Part shown: positions 21,967-33,115 of the stretch, one piece after another
How positions within the stretch are numbered: the stretch's first letter is position 1
Layout: each line of letters starts with the position of its first letter
Program-made: the position numbers and the translations under genes
Assembly (NCBI GenBank): GCA_938042355.1
Contig: CALIRD010000184.1
Span: 1 to 34,318, forward strand
DNA length: 34,318 nucleotides
Reading direction: 5' to 3'
Origin: an uncultured Thiotrichales bacterium
Lineage (GTDB): Bacteria > Pseudomonadota > Gammaproteobacteria > CAZUMV01
The notes under the pieces: generated by a model
What the model saw: the letters and a program-made list of their open reading frames with translations, nothing else
Told to the model about the DNA's origin: nothing
Database searches by the model: none

Positions 21967-22707
21967 TTACTGAGCAGCAGCTAACTGATTAAGCGCCTGT
22001 AACATATCCGCCGGCTTTCTGTAGCCAGGGATAATTTGACCGCCTTCGGTAACAATAGCTGGCGTTCCTGTAACACCCACTTCCTGACCCAGTAGATACT
22101 GAGCGGCAATCGGGTTGTTACATTCAAGCGAAGGAATGGATTTACCATTTTTTGCCTTGGTTAACTCACCTCGATTGTCTTCCGCACACCAGGCACTGAC
22201 CGCCTTCTTGAAAGAGTCAGACTGTAAACCGGCGCGTGGAAACATCATATAGCGAACTTCAATACCGAGATCGTTATATTCAGCCATTTGATTATGTAAT
22301 TTGCGACAATAACCACAATCGATATCAGTGAACACCGTAATCACATGTTTGGTATCACCCTTGGCTGGAAAAATAATACTTTGATCAGCTGGCATGCTGG
22401 CAATCTTGTCCTTTCTGGCAATCGAAATGGCACTGGAAGTAAGACTGGTACGTGTAGCCAGATTAATAATCTCGCCATCAACAATATAGTTACCATCTTC
22501 ACTAATGTAATAGATCTGCATACCGTAGTTCGCTTCATACAAACCAGGTATCGGCGTCTTAGTAATACTTTCAGGTGTTTCATTAGGAATAACTGACTTC
22601 AACTTTTGCTTCAAATTATCGGTTATCTGATCAGCGAAAACGCTGCCGCTGGCTAATGTAGCGAGAGCTACAACTAATAGTGTGATTTTTTTCATGTGAG
22701 TGCTCAT
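21967..22707 (-). CDS. dsbC: Periplasmic thiol:disulfide isomerase DsbC
   Basis: DsbC reshuffles wrong disulfides in periplasmic proteins and is kept reduced by DsbD. The 246-residue precursor has a signal peptide (MKKITLLVVALATLASGSVFA), an N-terminal dimerisation domain, and a thioredoxin-like domain with the active site TDIDCGYCRKLH, the cis-proline loop GVTGTPAIV and a second cysteine pair (AWCAED and LECNNP), as in E. coli DsbC. The start is ambiguous: ATG at 22707, or ATG at 22695, which gives a more usual signal peptide beginning. It lies downstream of xerD on the same strand, an arrangement kept from E. coli (xerD-dsbC-recJ), though 161 bp separate them. Confidence 0.95.
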   Translation of the reverse strand: MSTHMKKITLLVVALATLASGSVFADQITDNLKQKLKSVIPNETPESITKTPIPGLYEANYGMQIYYISEDGNYIVDGEIINLATRTSLTSSAISIARKDKIASMPADQSIIFPAKGDTKHVITVFTDIDCGYCRKLHNQMAEYNDLGIEVRYMMFPRAGLQSDSFKKAVSAWCAEDNRGELTKAKNGKSIPSLECNNPIAAQYLLGQEVGVTGTPAIVTEGGQIIPGYRKPADMLQALNQLAAAQ

Positions 22708-22868: not shown

Positions 22869-23771
22869 TTAGCCTCTCGGATGATGCGCTTGATGCAGTG
22901 CTTGTAAGCGTGCTTTTGCCACATGCGTATAGATTTGAGTAGTAGAAACATTGGCATGACCTAACAACATCTGGACCACACGCAGATCCGCACCATGATT
23001 TAACATATGTGTTGCAAAAGCATGACGTAAGGTATGTGGTGAAACATGTTTTTTTATTCCAGCTGCGTATGCGTGTTTTTTTATCGCATGCCAAAAAGTT
23101 TGTCGCGTCATTCCCCCTCCCCGTCTCGTTACGAACAACGCGTCTGACAGACCTTTAGCCGTTAACAAGTCAACACGCACGGTTTTCATATAGGTAGACA
23201 ACCACTCTTGCGCTTCGTCACCTACAGGTACCAGTCGCTCTTTATTTCCTTTACCAATCGTTTTAATCACACCCAGGTTGAAGTTAACCTGATCAACCTG
23301 CAACCCCACCAATTCACTGACCCGTAAACCACTGGCATACAACGTTTCGAGCATCGCCCGATCTCTGAAACCCTCGGGGGTCTCGGTATCTGGCGCATTG
23401 AGCAATGCATCAACATCTTCCTCGCTTAGCGTATCTGGCAATTTTCTGCCTTGTTTAGGTGTATCAACCAGAGCAGTCGGATCCTCCTCAAGCAGTTCTT
23501 CGCGCAGAGCATAGCGATAAAATCGTCGCCATGCCGACAACGCTCTGGCAACCGACCTGGGACTCATGCCTTTTTGGTGCCTTTGTTTTATGCACTCTTG
23601 TAACAAGCTTGCGTTTGCTGTTAACAGGGTCTCACCGCTCTTGTCCAGGTGAAACACTAATTGATTTAAATCGGTTCGATACGCAGACAAAGTATGTTCG
23701 CTCAAGCCTCGTTCGAGCCAGAGCGCATCAAGAAATTGCTCAATTAAAGGTGTCTGGTCTTGCTTAGTCAT
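22869..23771 (-). CDS. xerD: Site-specific tyrosine recombinase XerD
   Basis: XerD acts with XerC and FtsK at the dif site to resolve chromosome dimers. The 300-residue protein has the N-terminal core-binding domain (IEQFLDALWLERGLSEHTLSAYR, very close to E. coli XerD) and the catalytic domain with Arg in ASGLRVSELVGL, Lys in GKGNKERLVP, the box HTLRHAFATH, His in LLGHANVSTTQIYTH and the nucleophile Tyr of TQIYTH. The N-terminus identifies XerD rather than XerC. There is no visible Shine-Dalgarno sequence, and a strong intrinsic terminator ends only about 16 bp before the start codon, leaving no room for an ordinary promoter between them. Confidence 0.95.
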   Translation of the reverse strand: MTKQDQTPLIEQFLDALWLERGLSEHTLSAYRTDLNQLVFHLDKSGETLLTANASLLQECIKQRHQKGMSPRSVARALSAWRRFYRYALREELLEEDPTALVDTPKQGRKLPDTLSEEDVDALLNAPDTETPEGFRDRAMLETLYASGLRVSELVGLQVDQVNFNLGVIKTIGKGNKERLVPVGDEAQEWLSTYMKTVRVDLLTAKGLSDALFVTRRGGGMTRQTFWHAIKKHAYAAGIKKHVSPHTLRHAFATHMLNHGADLRVVQMLLGHANVSTTQIYTHVAKARLQALHQAHHPRG

Positions 23772-24379: not shown

Positions 24380-24814
24380 ATGCAAAGCGATAAACATAAC
24401 AAAATAACTTTTATCAAAAGAATGTTGATCATTATCTATGAATCAATTTTATTGTTTGCGGTTTATATGCTGGTTGGTACACCACCAACAATTCTGTTTC
24501 AAATAACACCGGAACAAACGATTAAGTTTGTACTGTATTGGTTTTACATTCTTGCTATGTTTTTTATTTACTTTGGTTATTGCTGGACTAAATCAGGACA
24601 AACGCTGGCAATGAAAGCCTGGCGCTGTAAAGTGAGTAATCAAGATGGCAGTCTGATCAGTTGGTCACAAGCATTCAAACGTTATCTATTTGCGATGATT
24701 TCGTGGCTAATATTTGGTGCAGGTTTTTTAATGAGCCTGTTTAGAACTGATCACGCTACCTTGCACGACATGGTTTCGAACTCATATTTATACAAAATAG
24801 AAAAACAGGATTAA
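24380..24814 (+). CDS. RDD family membrane protein
   Basis: This 144-residue protein has three predicted membrane helices (about 16-33, 47-68, 104-120) and the RDD family pattern: an Arg before the first helix (KRMLIIIYESILLF), the central SGQTLAMKAWRCKV segment and a terminal DHATLHDMVSNSYLY. The usual Asp of the first helix is replaced by Glu. RDD proteins are small membrane proteins, some linked to cation/proton exchange, but the function of this subgroup is unknown. It has a low-GC, AT-rich leader. The stop overlaps the convergent lptG by 4 bp. No operon partner lies on its strand. Confidence 0.85.
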   Translation: MQSDKHNKITFIKRMLIIIYESILLFAVYMLVGTPPTILFQITPEQTIKFVLYWFYILAMFFIYFGYCWTKSGQTLAMKAWRCKVSNQDGSLISWSQAFKRYLFAMISWLIFGAGFLMSLFRTDHATLHDMVSNSYLYKIEKQD

Positions 24815-25872
24815 ATTTTTCTAACGAAATACCAACCAGTAGCAACCGTTATTATGGGCACTAACAAGGCACTGATTAGTACCGGCACGCCGTAAACAAC
24901 ACCCAACTCATTAAACAGTTTGTTCAAGATATAAAAACTCAAACCCAGCAAGACACCAAAAAATAACCGCTGCCCAGCTCCGCCACCACGTTGGTGTGCA
25001 AATAGAAACGGCACAGAGATGAACATCATTACCAGAATTGTCAGCGGATGAATCAAGCGATTTACAAAAGCTAATTGATAACTGGCGCCATCGAGTTCAT
25101 TGGCACGCATGTATTTAATGTACTGGAACAAATCACGTCCAGACATTTGTTCAGGCACGATTCTCAACACATCCAGCATACCTTCGGGAACCAATTGACC
25201 AAGATCAACACTGGTTCCAACATTCGACACCACTTGTTCTTTAGAAATAGTGGTGATCATGGCATCACTCATTACCCAGGATGAGCCTTTGAGTTCCACC
25301 GAATCTGCCTGAGTAACACTGGTTAATTCCAGATCATTAAAACTATAAACCGTGACATCCTTGAGGCGCCTGTCATCTATGACCGAGCCGGCATGCACAA
25401 AACGATTCTGCTCGCGCAACCATAAACCACCTTTTCGATTAATATTTAACTGCTCAGATAACGCAGTGGCGCGCATCTCTTCACCCAGCTGCCAACTCAC
25501 TGGCGACAACCACTCACCAAGCGCAAATGCAATTAATGCTATGACCAAACCAGATTTAAAACTCGACAATATAAAATCAACGACTGACACACCTGCAGCA
25601 CGCATAGCGGTGATTTGACTACTCGAGGCCAATGTACCCAAACCCACTAACGAACCGATCAAGGTTGCCGTTGGTAATAACTCATAGATACGACCGGGCA
25701 AGGTGTAGAAAACATAAATCGCCGCTTGCAAACTACCGTATTGATGTTTGCCTACATCTTCAAACTGATTTAACAACTCAAGAAAAGCATTAATAGAAAC
25801 CAATACAAATAACACCAGTAAGGTACCCATTAATACATGAGTGAAAATATATCTATCCAGTAACTTAATCAC
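24811..25872 (-). CDS. lptG: LPS export ABC permease LptG
   Basis: LptG forms with LptF the membrane part of the LptB2FGC transporter that extracts lipopolysaccharide from the inner membrane and passes it to the periplasmic LptA bridge. The 353-residue protein has the family layout: three N-terminal helices with the coupling region SQITAMRAAGVSV, a periplasmic beta-jellyroll domain (about 125-260), and three C-terminal helices ending GVPVLISALLVPIITVATGWYFVRK. The start overlaps the end of lptF by 8 bp, so the two are translated together. The length is normal (E. coli 360). Confidence 0.96.
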   Translation of the reverse strand: MIKLLDRYIFTHVLMGTLLVLFVLVSINAFLELLNQFEDVGKHQYGSLQAAIYVFYTLPGRIYELLPTATLIGSLVGLGTLASSSQITAMRAAGVSVVDFILSSFKSGLVIALIAFALGEWLSPVSWQLGEEMRATALSEQLNINRKGGLWLREQNRFVHAGSVIDDRRLKDVTVYSFNDLELTSVTQADSVELKGSSWVMSDAMITTISKEQVVSNVGTSVDLGQLVPEGMLDVLRIVPEQMSGRDLFQYIKYMRANELDGASYQLAFVNRLIHPLTILVMMFISVPFLFAHQRGGGAGQRLFFGVLLGLSFYILNKLFNELGVVYGVPVLISALLVPIITVATGWYFVRKI

Positions 25873-26971
25873 GCTTTAGCTCCAACTTGTTGCCGGGCTT
25901 GAAGCGATTTAACAAATAACGCAGCGGATACTGGCGTGTTAAAAACCAGAAAGTAAGCAGGACTAACAATATATGTACCCACCAAATGCCTAACCATGCC
26001 GGTGTTGTTCCTTTAACCATCCAGTTTTGCGCGACACCGAGTAGATTCTGATAAACAATATAAATGACGATCGCCAATGCCAATTTGGTGAACTGCCCTT
26101 TTCTAGGTGTGGTGTAACTCAGCGGCAATGCCAGCACAACCAATAGAAAAGCACTTAAAGGATAAGCCAATCGCCACTGAATTTCGGCACGCTCCTCGAG
26201 TTTTCCAGAGCCCAATAAAGTCGTGGTTGGTGTCGACGACAGTCTGGTGCGGTAATTTATCTCCTGTTCATTCGGCAACTGCAAACCCTGTTTGGAAAAT
26301 TCAACCAGACTTAACTTTTCTTGATCAGGGCCCATCTCAAACAAAGCACCTTGTTGTAACTCGAGAATATTCAGACTTTCTTCAGGTGTCACTTGTAATG
26401 CAGAGTCCGCTGCAATCACCCGCATACCTTCTTCACCGGAGCTGAACATGTAGACATTTTGCAGCGCATCGTCTGCTATAGATTCGGCAAAGATGACCGA
26501 ACCGGATGATGGAATAGTGATGAACTTACCCGGCGTGATACCGGCTATATCAACATGCTGGGCCGCTTCGCTGCGTAAATTGTCCTGCATTTGTTGCGCG
26601 CGCGGTTGTATTTGAAATGAAAGCCACGCAACGAACAACGCCACCACTACCGCCAATAACAACAACGGGCGAGCAATTCGTTCATAACCCACTCCGCCAG
26701 CACGCAAGGCAGTCATCTCGCTATCTTTATAAAAACGCCCAAGGGTAACCAGCACACCCAAATACAGTGCTACCGTAATTAACGTAGGAAAAGACTTGAT
26801 ACCGACTACAAATACCAATGGCAGCAAGACAGTGACATCTATTTTACCGGCCGCTACCTGGCCCAGCATTTTCGCGAATAATCCACCCAGCAGGATTAAC
26901 AGCAATACCAATAGCACGGCAAACACCGTAGACAGTGCTTCGCGTAACAAGTAGCGGTTGATAATGCTCAT
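25865..26971 (-). CDS. lptF: LPS export ABC permease LptF
   Basis: LptF is the partner permease of LptG. I chose the ATG at 26971 (MSIINRYLLREALSTVFAVLL) over the track start at 27004 because it matches the usual LptF N-terminus; the product is 368 residues (E. coli 366). Three N-terminal membrane helices carry the ATPase coupling region SEMTALRAGGVGYERI, then a periplasmic jellyroll domain (about 125-255) and three C-terminal helices (LAYPLSAFLLVVLALPLSY, LALAIVIYIVYQNLLGVAQ, GIWWVHILLVLLTFWFL). It is divergent from pepA, a gene arrangement conserved in gammaproteobacteria. Confidence 0.96.
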   Translation of the reverse strand: MSIINRYLLREALSTVFAVLLVLLLILLGGLFAKMLGQVAAGKIDVTVLLPLVFVVGIKSFPTLITVALYLGVLVTLGRFYKDSEMTALRAGGVGYERIARPLLLLAVVVALFVAWLSFQIQPRAQQMQDNLRSEAAQHVDIAGITPGKFITIPSSGSVIFAESIADDALQNVYMFSSGEEGMRVIAADSALQVTPEESLNILELQQGALFEMGPDQEKLSLVEFSKQGLQLPNEQEINYRTRLSSTPTTTLLGSGKLEERAEIQWRLAYPLSAFLLVVLALPLSYTTPRKGQFTKLALAIVIYIVYQNLLGVAQNWMVKGTTPAWLGIWWVHILLVLLTFWFLTRQYPLRYLLNRFKPGNKLELKRD

Positions 26972-27137
26972 TCCGAGAGAATACTTCCTTATTTTGCAGA
27001 CCAATTGAAGTCATCATGACATCAATGAATATTATGCATTATGATTAGCCAAAGGTCTGCGGGTTCCCTTTATTTAATGGAACTGGCACACAGTCAGATG
27101 AACTGACGCCACACATTCAGCTAAAAAGGACGAACTA

Positions 27138-32214: not shown

Positions 32215-32246
32215 CCTGCAAGGAGATGACTCGTTCTCCTTGCAGG
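32215..32246. terminator. Stem-loop between valS and the convergent carbonic anhydrase gene
   Basis: CCTGCAAGGAGA and TCTCCTTGCAGG form a perfect 12-bp stem with an 8-base loop, 18 bp after the valS stop and 17 bp before the carbonic anhydrase stop. The T-run is poor (TCCTTGTT), but the stem strength and the convergent position favour a shared terminator. Confidence 0.7.
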
Positions 32247-32263: not shown

Positions 32264-33115
32264 TTACTCTATTGGTGAAAGCAGCTCAGGCGCTGTGACT
32301 AACTGTCGAACACCGTGTGACTTGGTCTCATTAAAGACATTACCATTTGCCGCCCACTCATTGAGCGAGTTGATGTCCAGCTTGGCGCACTGTGGTCGCA
32401 CATTCCATGTGACTTTCATTGGAGAACAGGTCGCCTGGGTATAGCTTGGGCCTGTCGTTGAACCGCGGAACAACACAGGCTCGCCGGTACCGTTAGGAAT
32501 ACTCAACGCTTGATGCAGATTGTTACGCTTGTTACCTGCATACGCAAAATCATTGAAATCCAGCGCATTTTCATCGTTGACTACCAGGAATACCTGAGCT
32601 TCAACACGTAGCAATGGATCAGTGCACGTGTCACTCAGACACGAACCAAGGCCTTCACCAGGTTCAATATCACATGAGGTATGCACCCAATGTACTTCTA
32701 TCGTGTCACCCGGCTTCACTTCTTTAAATTTACCCGCATTGACTGTCGGCGCTGCAAGCTCGGCAGCAGTGAGACTGGCCGCTCCATTACAGGCGTAACC
32801 GCCATAATCTGAGTCATTAACAAAGACACTAAAACCAGGACCTTTATGCTCGGCATTGGTGTGTGTATGGATATTACACAAGTTAAGCTCGGCGGCTGGT
32901 GGTGCCATTGGGAAATCAGCCGTATTCAAACCGACTACACTACTGATGTCTCGTGGAGTTTGTGGACCAAAATCCACACACAAATCACCCGCCATCTCGC
33001 TCTTGGCCATAGCCTCGGCAGATTTTGCCTCATTCGCGACAGCAGCCTCTTGCTCCACTGCTGCACAAGCTGAAAGAAATGCGAGTGACACCATTACTAA
33101 AAAAAGCTTTTTCAT
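32264..33115 (-). CDS. Delta-class carbonic anhydrase, predicted lipoprotein
   Basis: The 283-residue protein begins with a lipoprotein signal (MKKLFLVMVSLAFLSAC, Cys17 lipidated, Ala at +2 so probably outer membrane), then an Ala/Glu-rich linker to about residue 43. The rest resembles the delta carbonic anhydrases first found in diatoms and also seen in marine bacteria. It has a histidine cluster NIHTHTNAEH (His83, His85, His90), a second VHWVHTSC (His142, His145), many cysteines (46, 80, 109, 148 and later pairs) likely to form disulfides, and C-terminal CAKLDINSLNEW. It would interconvert CO2 and bicarbonate outside the cytoplasm. The class is recalled from memory; exact zinc ligands are inferred. 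AAGGAGATC gives a strong ribosome site. Confidence 0.75.
   Translation of the reverse strand: MKKLFLVMVSLAFLSACAAVEQEAAVANEAKSAEAMAKSEMAGDLCVDFGPQTPRDISSVVGLNTADFPMAPPAAELNLCNIHTHTNAEHKGPGFSVFVNDSDYGGYACNGAASLTAAELAAPTVNAGKFKEVKPGDTIEVHWVHTSCDIEPGEGLGSCLSDTCTDPLLRVEAQVFLVVNDENALDFNDFAYAGNKRNNLHQALSIPNGTGEPVLFRGSTTGPSYTQATCSPMKVTWNVRPQCAKLDINSLNEWAANGNVFNETKSHGVRQLVTAPELLSPIE

Follow-up and report, generated by a model that had tools for sequence, protein, structure and literature searches.

A delta-class carbonic anhydrase with a predicted lipid anchor in an uncultured Thiotrichales bacterium

The window, that is, the whole 34,318-nucleotide stretch of contig CALIRD010000184.1 from an uncultured Thiotrichales bacterium, encodes a delta-class carbonic anhydrase (delta-CA) that, judged from its sequence, is a real lipid-anchored member of a known family and is probably active. 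We assign a probability of roughly 0.8 to the reading that it is a catalytically competent delta-CA, which passes through Sec for export, carries a lipid on Cys17, is placed in the periplasm via Lol, and equilibrates CO2 and bicarbonate. The family assignment, motifs, conservation, lipobox, and distribution are grounded in the data described below. The open reading frame starts with ATG and has an AGGAG ribosome-binding site closely 5' of the start (Table 1). In a Pfam profile search, PF10563.14 (“Delta carbonic anhydrase”) matched the protein with 227 bits (E 2.4e-67; curated cut-off 26.3 bits), and residues 75–250 aligned with profile positions 2–181 of 181, which bears out the delta-class identity proposed in the preliminary description. 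No NCBIfam model gave a meaningful score for the protein, and a PDB sequence search returned no solved delta-CA structure. The AlphaFold model of the whole protein had a mean pLDDT of 87.3 and a pTM of 0.81, and the strands bearing the predicted ligands (residues 78–86 and 138–146) were both confident. Comparison with the delta-CA family (PF10563/IPR018883), of which TWCA1/TweCA-delta of Thalassiosira weissflogii is the type enzyme, revealed that (i) the protein shares the full-length match, the conserved three-His set, and export; and (ii) it differs in being a bacterial lipoprotein with a tether, with 8 cysteines conserved in the lipoprotein subclade.

Table 1. Positions in the window of the delta-CA gene and of the features predicted in its product.
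Feature	Position	Strand	Basis
Delta-class carbonic anhydrase gene, 283 aa	32264..33115	-	ORF and AGGAG ribosome-binding site; Pfam PF10563
Signal peptide, residues 1–16, lipobox LSA at its end: MKKLFLVMVSLAFLSA followed by C	33068..33115	-	
Cys17, predicted lipidated residue, Ala at +2	33065..33067	-	Lipobox pattern
Ala/Glu-rich tether, residues 18–45, before C46	32981..33064	-	
Catalytic domain, residues 46–283	32267..32980	-	Pfam match (75–250) and structure model
H83-x-H85-x-x-x-E89-H90, two predicted ligands and invariant Glu-His pair; compare alpha-CA HxH...EH	32846..32869	-	
E140-x-H142-x-V144-H145, third predicted ligand H142; E140, H142, and V144 invariant; compare alpha-CA ExHxVH	32681..32698	-	
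GSTTGP, residues 218–223, invariant; predicted counterpart of alpha-CA Thr199-Thr200	32447..32464	-	hhalign to GSLTTPP
Trp237 in VTW, invariant; predicted counterpart of alpha-CA Trp209	32405..32407	-	hhalign

In an alignment of 83 diverse bacterial delta-CA sequences filtered at 82% identity, 50 positions were invariant, and residues H83, H85, E89, H90, E140, H142, T220, and T221 were among those kept in 83/83 sequences. H267 was nearly invariant, and position 145 varied among H, Y, and F. A metal site of five histidines (H83, H85, H90, H142, and H145) had been proposed earlier; its positions were right and the first four are invariant, but H145 is not, which leaves a site of probably three histidines. 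From this conservation pattern, H83, H85, and H142 are the likely metal ligands, and H90 fits better as a second-shell residue than as a ligand. Three-His metal coordination has been reported for delta-CA (PMC8132391; PMC4730368), and cobalt can substitute for zinc in the diatom enzyme (PMC4730368). The proposal that the protein carries several conserved cysteines also stood: besides Cys17, all 8 mature cysteines are invariant in the nearest sequences (47/47), and 2 of them, C80 and C159, are invariant in 83/83 sequences of the wider alignment.

The N-terminal region accords with the earlier claims of a lipobox and an Ala/Glu-rich tether. Under a strict rule, at least 62 of the 81 close relatives, the window protein included, kept the lipobox (LSA followed by Cys17); the number is a lower bound, since L004, L008, and L025, at least, seem to be lipoproteins that the rule missed. 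By the same rule the lipobox was present in 1 of 55 sequences of the second numbered set. The Pfam lipoprotein model LPAM_1 scored 14 bits on the window protein, under its 20-bit cut-off. In several members from Alphaproteobacteria, an ordinary cleavable signal takes the place of the lipobox. Thus read, the predicted lipoprotein form marks one delta-CA subclade; the literature that we searched contained no description of a lipid-anchored delta-CA. The tether consists of 28 residues, 10 of them Ala and 5 Glu, and in the AlphaFold model it forms a helix as far as residue 39 with pLDDT mostly of 55–76. The distance from the lipid-bearing Cys to the GPQ motif is 25–47 residues in nearly all lipobox sequences. 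None of the 62 lipobox sequences has Asp at +2. Under the Lol rule known from Escherichia coli, a +2 residue other than Asp, for example Ala, leads to sorting to the outer membrane, and the default side of outer-membrane lipoproteins sorted by Lol is the periplasmic leaflet. For the window protein, the predicted location is therefore more likely the periplasmic side of the outer membrane than the cell surface; of the surface anchoring suggested in the preliminary description, the outer membrane agrees with Ala at +2, and “surface” is too strong.

For the activity, metal, membrane side, and physiological role, we infer the following sequence of events. Sec would export the protein, Cys17 would be lipidated, and Lol would most likely deliver the protein to the outer membrane; the folded domain with its disulfide bonds would then hang in the periplasm from the flexible Ala/Glu tether. 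H83, H85, and H142 would hold the metal, which may be zinc or, following the diatom enzyme, perhaps cobalt, and the metal-bound hydroxide would attack CO2 to yield bicarbonate, with the reverse reaction also taking place. E89 and T220/T221 would probably orient the hydroxide in the manner of the Glu106-Thr199 pair of alpha-CA, with H90 in the second shell. CO2 and bicarbonate in the periplasm would thereby be held near equilibrium, which would aid CO2/bicarbonate supply and pH; a general periplasmic role of this kind is our best guess for this organism. The same periplasmic equilibration has been proposed for an enzyme of a different class, the periplasmic alpha-CA of Rhodopseudomonas palustris, as cited in PMC10880623. 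The literature searched yielded no activity assay of a bacterial delta-CA.

A more specialized role, in which the enzyme would feed, at the cell surface, a CO2-concentrating system built on RuBisCO, as is thought for the algal external delta-CA, is unlikely here. RuBisCO-family matches occur in 22 of the 30 delta-CA genomes of the class sample and in 165 of the other 339 (Fisher p 0.012, uncorrected for relatedness, with a count that takes in weak, probably RuBisCO-like matches), a co-occurrence somewhat above expectation that speaks for such a role, and a family mate of the window's organism (G002) has both RuBisCO-family matches and DabA. In the window's own genome and that of its genus mate (completeness 72% and 84%), however, there was no match to the RuBisCO large-chain family, DabA, alpha-CA, or beta-CA (alpha and beta being the other carbonic anhydrase classes sought), and the chance of missing one shared gene in both genomes is about 0.28 x 0.16 = 4.5%. 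The heterotrophs Hellea, Henriciella, and Hirschia carry relatives of the same subclade, which also argues against RuBisCO feeding. In the class sample, delta-CA and alpha-CA also co-occur mildly (p 0.021, without correction for relatedness).

It is still less probable, and in our view quite improbable, that the protein has lost catalysis or been repurposed and serves as a zinc-binding envelope lipoprotein. The subclade-specific cysteines are compatible with such a change, as is the motif IHTHTNAEHKGP of the near set, which differs from IHFHKNAEHKGGEF of the other clade; the second set, typically with IHFHKNAEHK, is 47–63% identical to the window protein. However, all predicted ligands and second-shell residues are invariant across both clades, which argues against a dead enzyme because these residues would be expected to vary more once catalysis was lost. 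Elsewhere in the family, 4 delta-CA matches contain an internal stop or are split (G186:C1:664182-664715, G256:C2:1344568-1344887, G400:C24:82970-83239, and G610:C38:4130-4565), which suggests that the gene is decaying in certain lineages or that the sequences contain errors, and 2 matches lie about 6 kb apart at G058:C8:134837-141541, one of them covering profile positions 2–129 only.

Relatives of the window protein were found at 221 loci in one genome-collection scan; 80 of these were retained, with members from Hellea, Robiginitomaculum, Henriciella, Hirschia, Parvularculaceae, Woeseiaceae, Roseibium, Stappia, Acidobacteriota bins, and others. In evenly drawn samples, delta-CA was matched at E <= 0.001 in 32 of 369 genomes of the class and 77 of 399 genomes of the phylum, of which 30 and 77, respectively, were above the curated PF10563 cut-off; most matches of the phylum sample came from one family (f207), and none of the 14 control genomes had a match. 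Seven plasmid records, 4 of them conjugative, carry relatives with 46–50% identity over 83–85% of the query, annotated “delta-class carbonic anhydrase”, the name that RefSeq already gives to bacterial copies. The plasmid delta-CAs of Shewanella baltica, Pseudoalteromonas, and Piscirickettsia salmonis are more distant from the window protein than the lipoprotein subclade is. On a conjugative plasmid of S. baltica, an IS6-family transposase gene lies on one side of the delta-CA gene and a recombinase gene on the other (L183:3009-5568). The wide occurrence in genomes and plasmids, together with the existing annotation, means that bacterial delta-CA was already known: a count of carbonic anhydrase Pfams across finished genomes of bacteria and archaea includes delta-CA (PMC10880623), and PMC13098186, which describes the class as largely confined to diatoms and protozoa, mentions BLAST searches for delta-CA. 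The class, which the preliminary description called best known from diatoms, was first described there but occurs commonly among bacteria.

A quick tree of bacterial sequences (SH-aLRT supports only) paired the window protein with that of a Thiotrichales MAG (92% identity, SH-aLRT 98); gammaproteobacterial and alphaproteobacterial copies stand next to this pair, and the nearest relatives are all bacterial. Bacterial classes are interleaved in this tree, which suggests transfers of delta-CA between bacteria. A recent acquisition of the window gene from an alga, for which the first description of the class in diatoms might speak, is highly improbable, since the gene nests within a bacterial clade beside the Thiotrichales MAG (in a bacterial-only tree) and the bacterial family is large and diverse across classes and phyla. 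The old gene exchange with algae suggested in the preliminary description is likewise not supported by this tree. No relative was found among viral contigs or phages, and a phage or viral source was rejected.

As a bacterial delta-CA the window protein is ordinary, and the testable wider question is the origin of the delta class, which has been listed as evolutionarily independent of alpha (PMC10880623; PMC8132391). We lean toward the view that delta is a divergent branch of the alpha-CA fold, with the same order of ligands and second-shell residues and a trefoil knot, and that it is diverse in bacteria, where it would include a lipid-anchored periplasmic subfamily in organisms without RuBisCO CO2 fixation. 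Comparison of bacterial alpha-CA (PF00194) with delta-CA revealed that (i) both have the order QxPxxI, HxH, EH, ExHxVH, GS(L)TT, and VxW, as seen in the pairs QSPIDI/QTPRDI, HFHxPSEH/HTHTNAEH, ExHxVH/EVHWVH, GSLTTPP/GSTTGP, and VxW/VTW; (ii) in Foldseek searches of the PDB with two models, the top 50 matches were all alpha-class enzymes (best E 2.7e-4 and 3.7e-4); and (iii) the two differ by a long insertion that separates the HxH strand from the ExH strand, and the TM-scores were low (0.17–0.35), so that a global superposition of alpha and delta is not supported. PF00194 itself did not match the window protein even with an E-value limit of 1, and an hmmsearch of the PDB reached an alpha-CA at E 0.77 for query A1 and none for query A2. 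When the alpha profile was run over 1,908 open reading frames, the best non-alpha matches were delta-CAs in 50/50, and the best non-delta matches of two delta profiles were alpha-CAs in 8/10 and 9/10, rank counts that overstate significance because antisense frames are part of the background and members of one family are not independent of each other; the best single E-values were only 0.04–0.2. A spacing-aware chain of conserved residues scored 16.1, the highest value among 2000 residue shuffles being 14.0, with a scoring scheme and shuffle tests that were our own choice, set after the motifs had been seen. The hhalign score of alpha against delta (32.4) exceeded all of 200 column shuffles and was beaten by 1 of 200 block shuffles, with P of 0.0007 when one alpha alignment was used and 0.02 with the tool's own alignments. 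Taken together, motif order, reciprocal profile ranks, and Foldseek suggest kinship, the sequence statistics alone being weak; convergence on a similar metal site is a possible alternative. Part of this point is anticipated by a 2024 survey of AlphaFold models, in which alpha- and delta-CA were grouped together, both with 3_1 knots (PMC11184937). If delta is an alpha branch, there would be one fewer independent invention of carbonic anhydrase, the delta active site would be readable from alpha-CA chemistry, and bacterial delta-CAs would be convenient for a first delta structure; a 2018 study noted that neither a structure nor a homology model was available (PMC6009927).

The adjoining valS and phoB-phoR were found beside the delta-CA gene in this genus only; in the family mate G002, phoB by our own reading follows a lipA-like gene. 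Across the 80 named loci, the commonest neighbor clusters within about 400 bases resemble antisense reading frames overlapping the carbonic anhydrase gene, and each remaining cluster occurs at no more than 9 of the 80. DsbC, which had been linked with delta-CA, is indeed encoded in the window (21967–22707, minus strand), but the link does not follow: dsbC directly follows xerD (22869–23771), as it does in E. coli, and lies about 9.6 kb from the delta-CA gene, so that it was rejected as a partner and regarded as part of a housekeeping xerD-dsbC unit. A terminator scan between valS and the delta-CA gene gave no hit. Inspection by eye of the region between these convergent genes revealed a perfect 12-bp inverted repeat, CCTGCAAGGAGA / TCTCCTTGCAGG (32215–32246), which lacks a T-run and is possibly a two-way terminator. 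Two adjoining genes of LptF/LptG-family permeases, the usual LPS export pair, lie at 24811–27004. In another genome (G243), an alpha-CA gene with a lipobox-like signal, a gene for what we take to be a TerC-like membrane protein, and a delta-CA gene stand in a row (L180:3929-6743).
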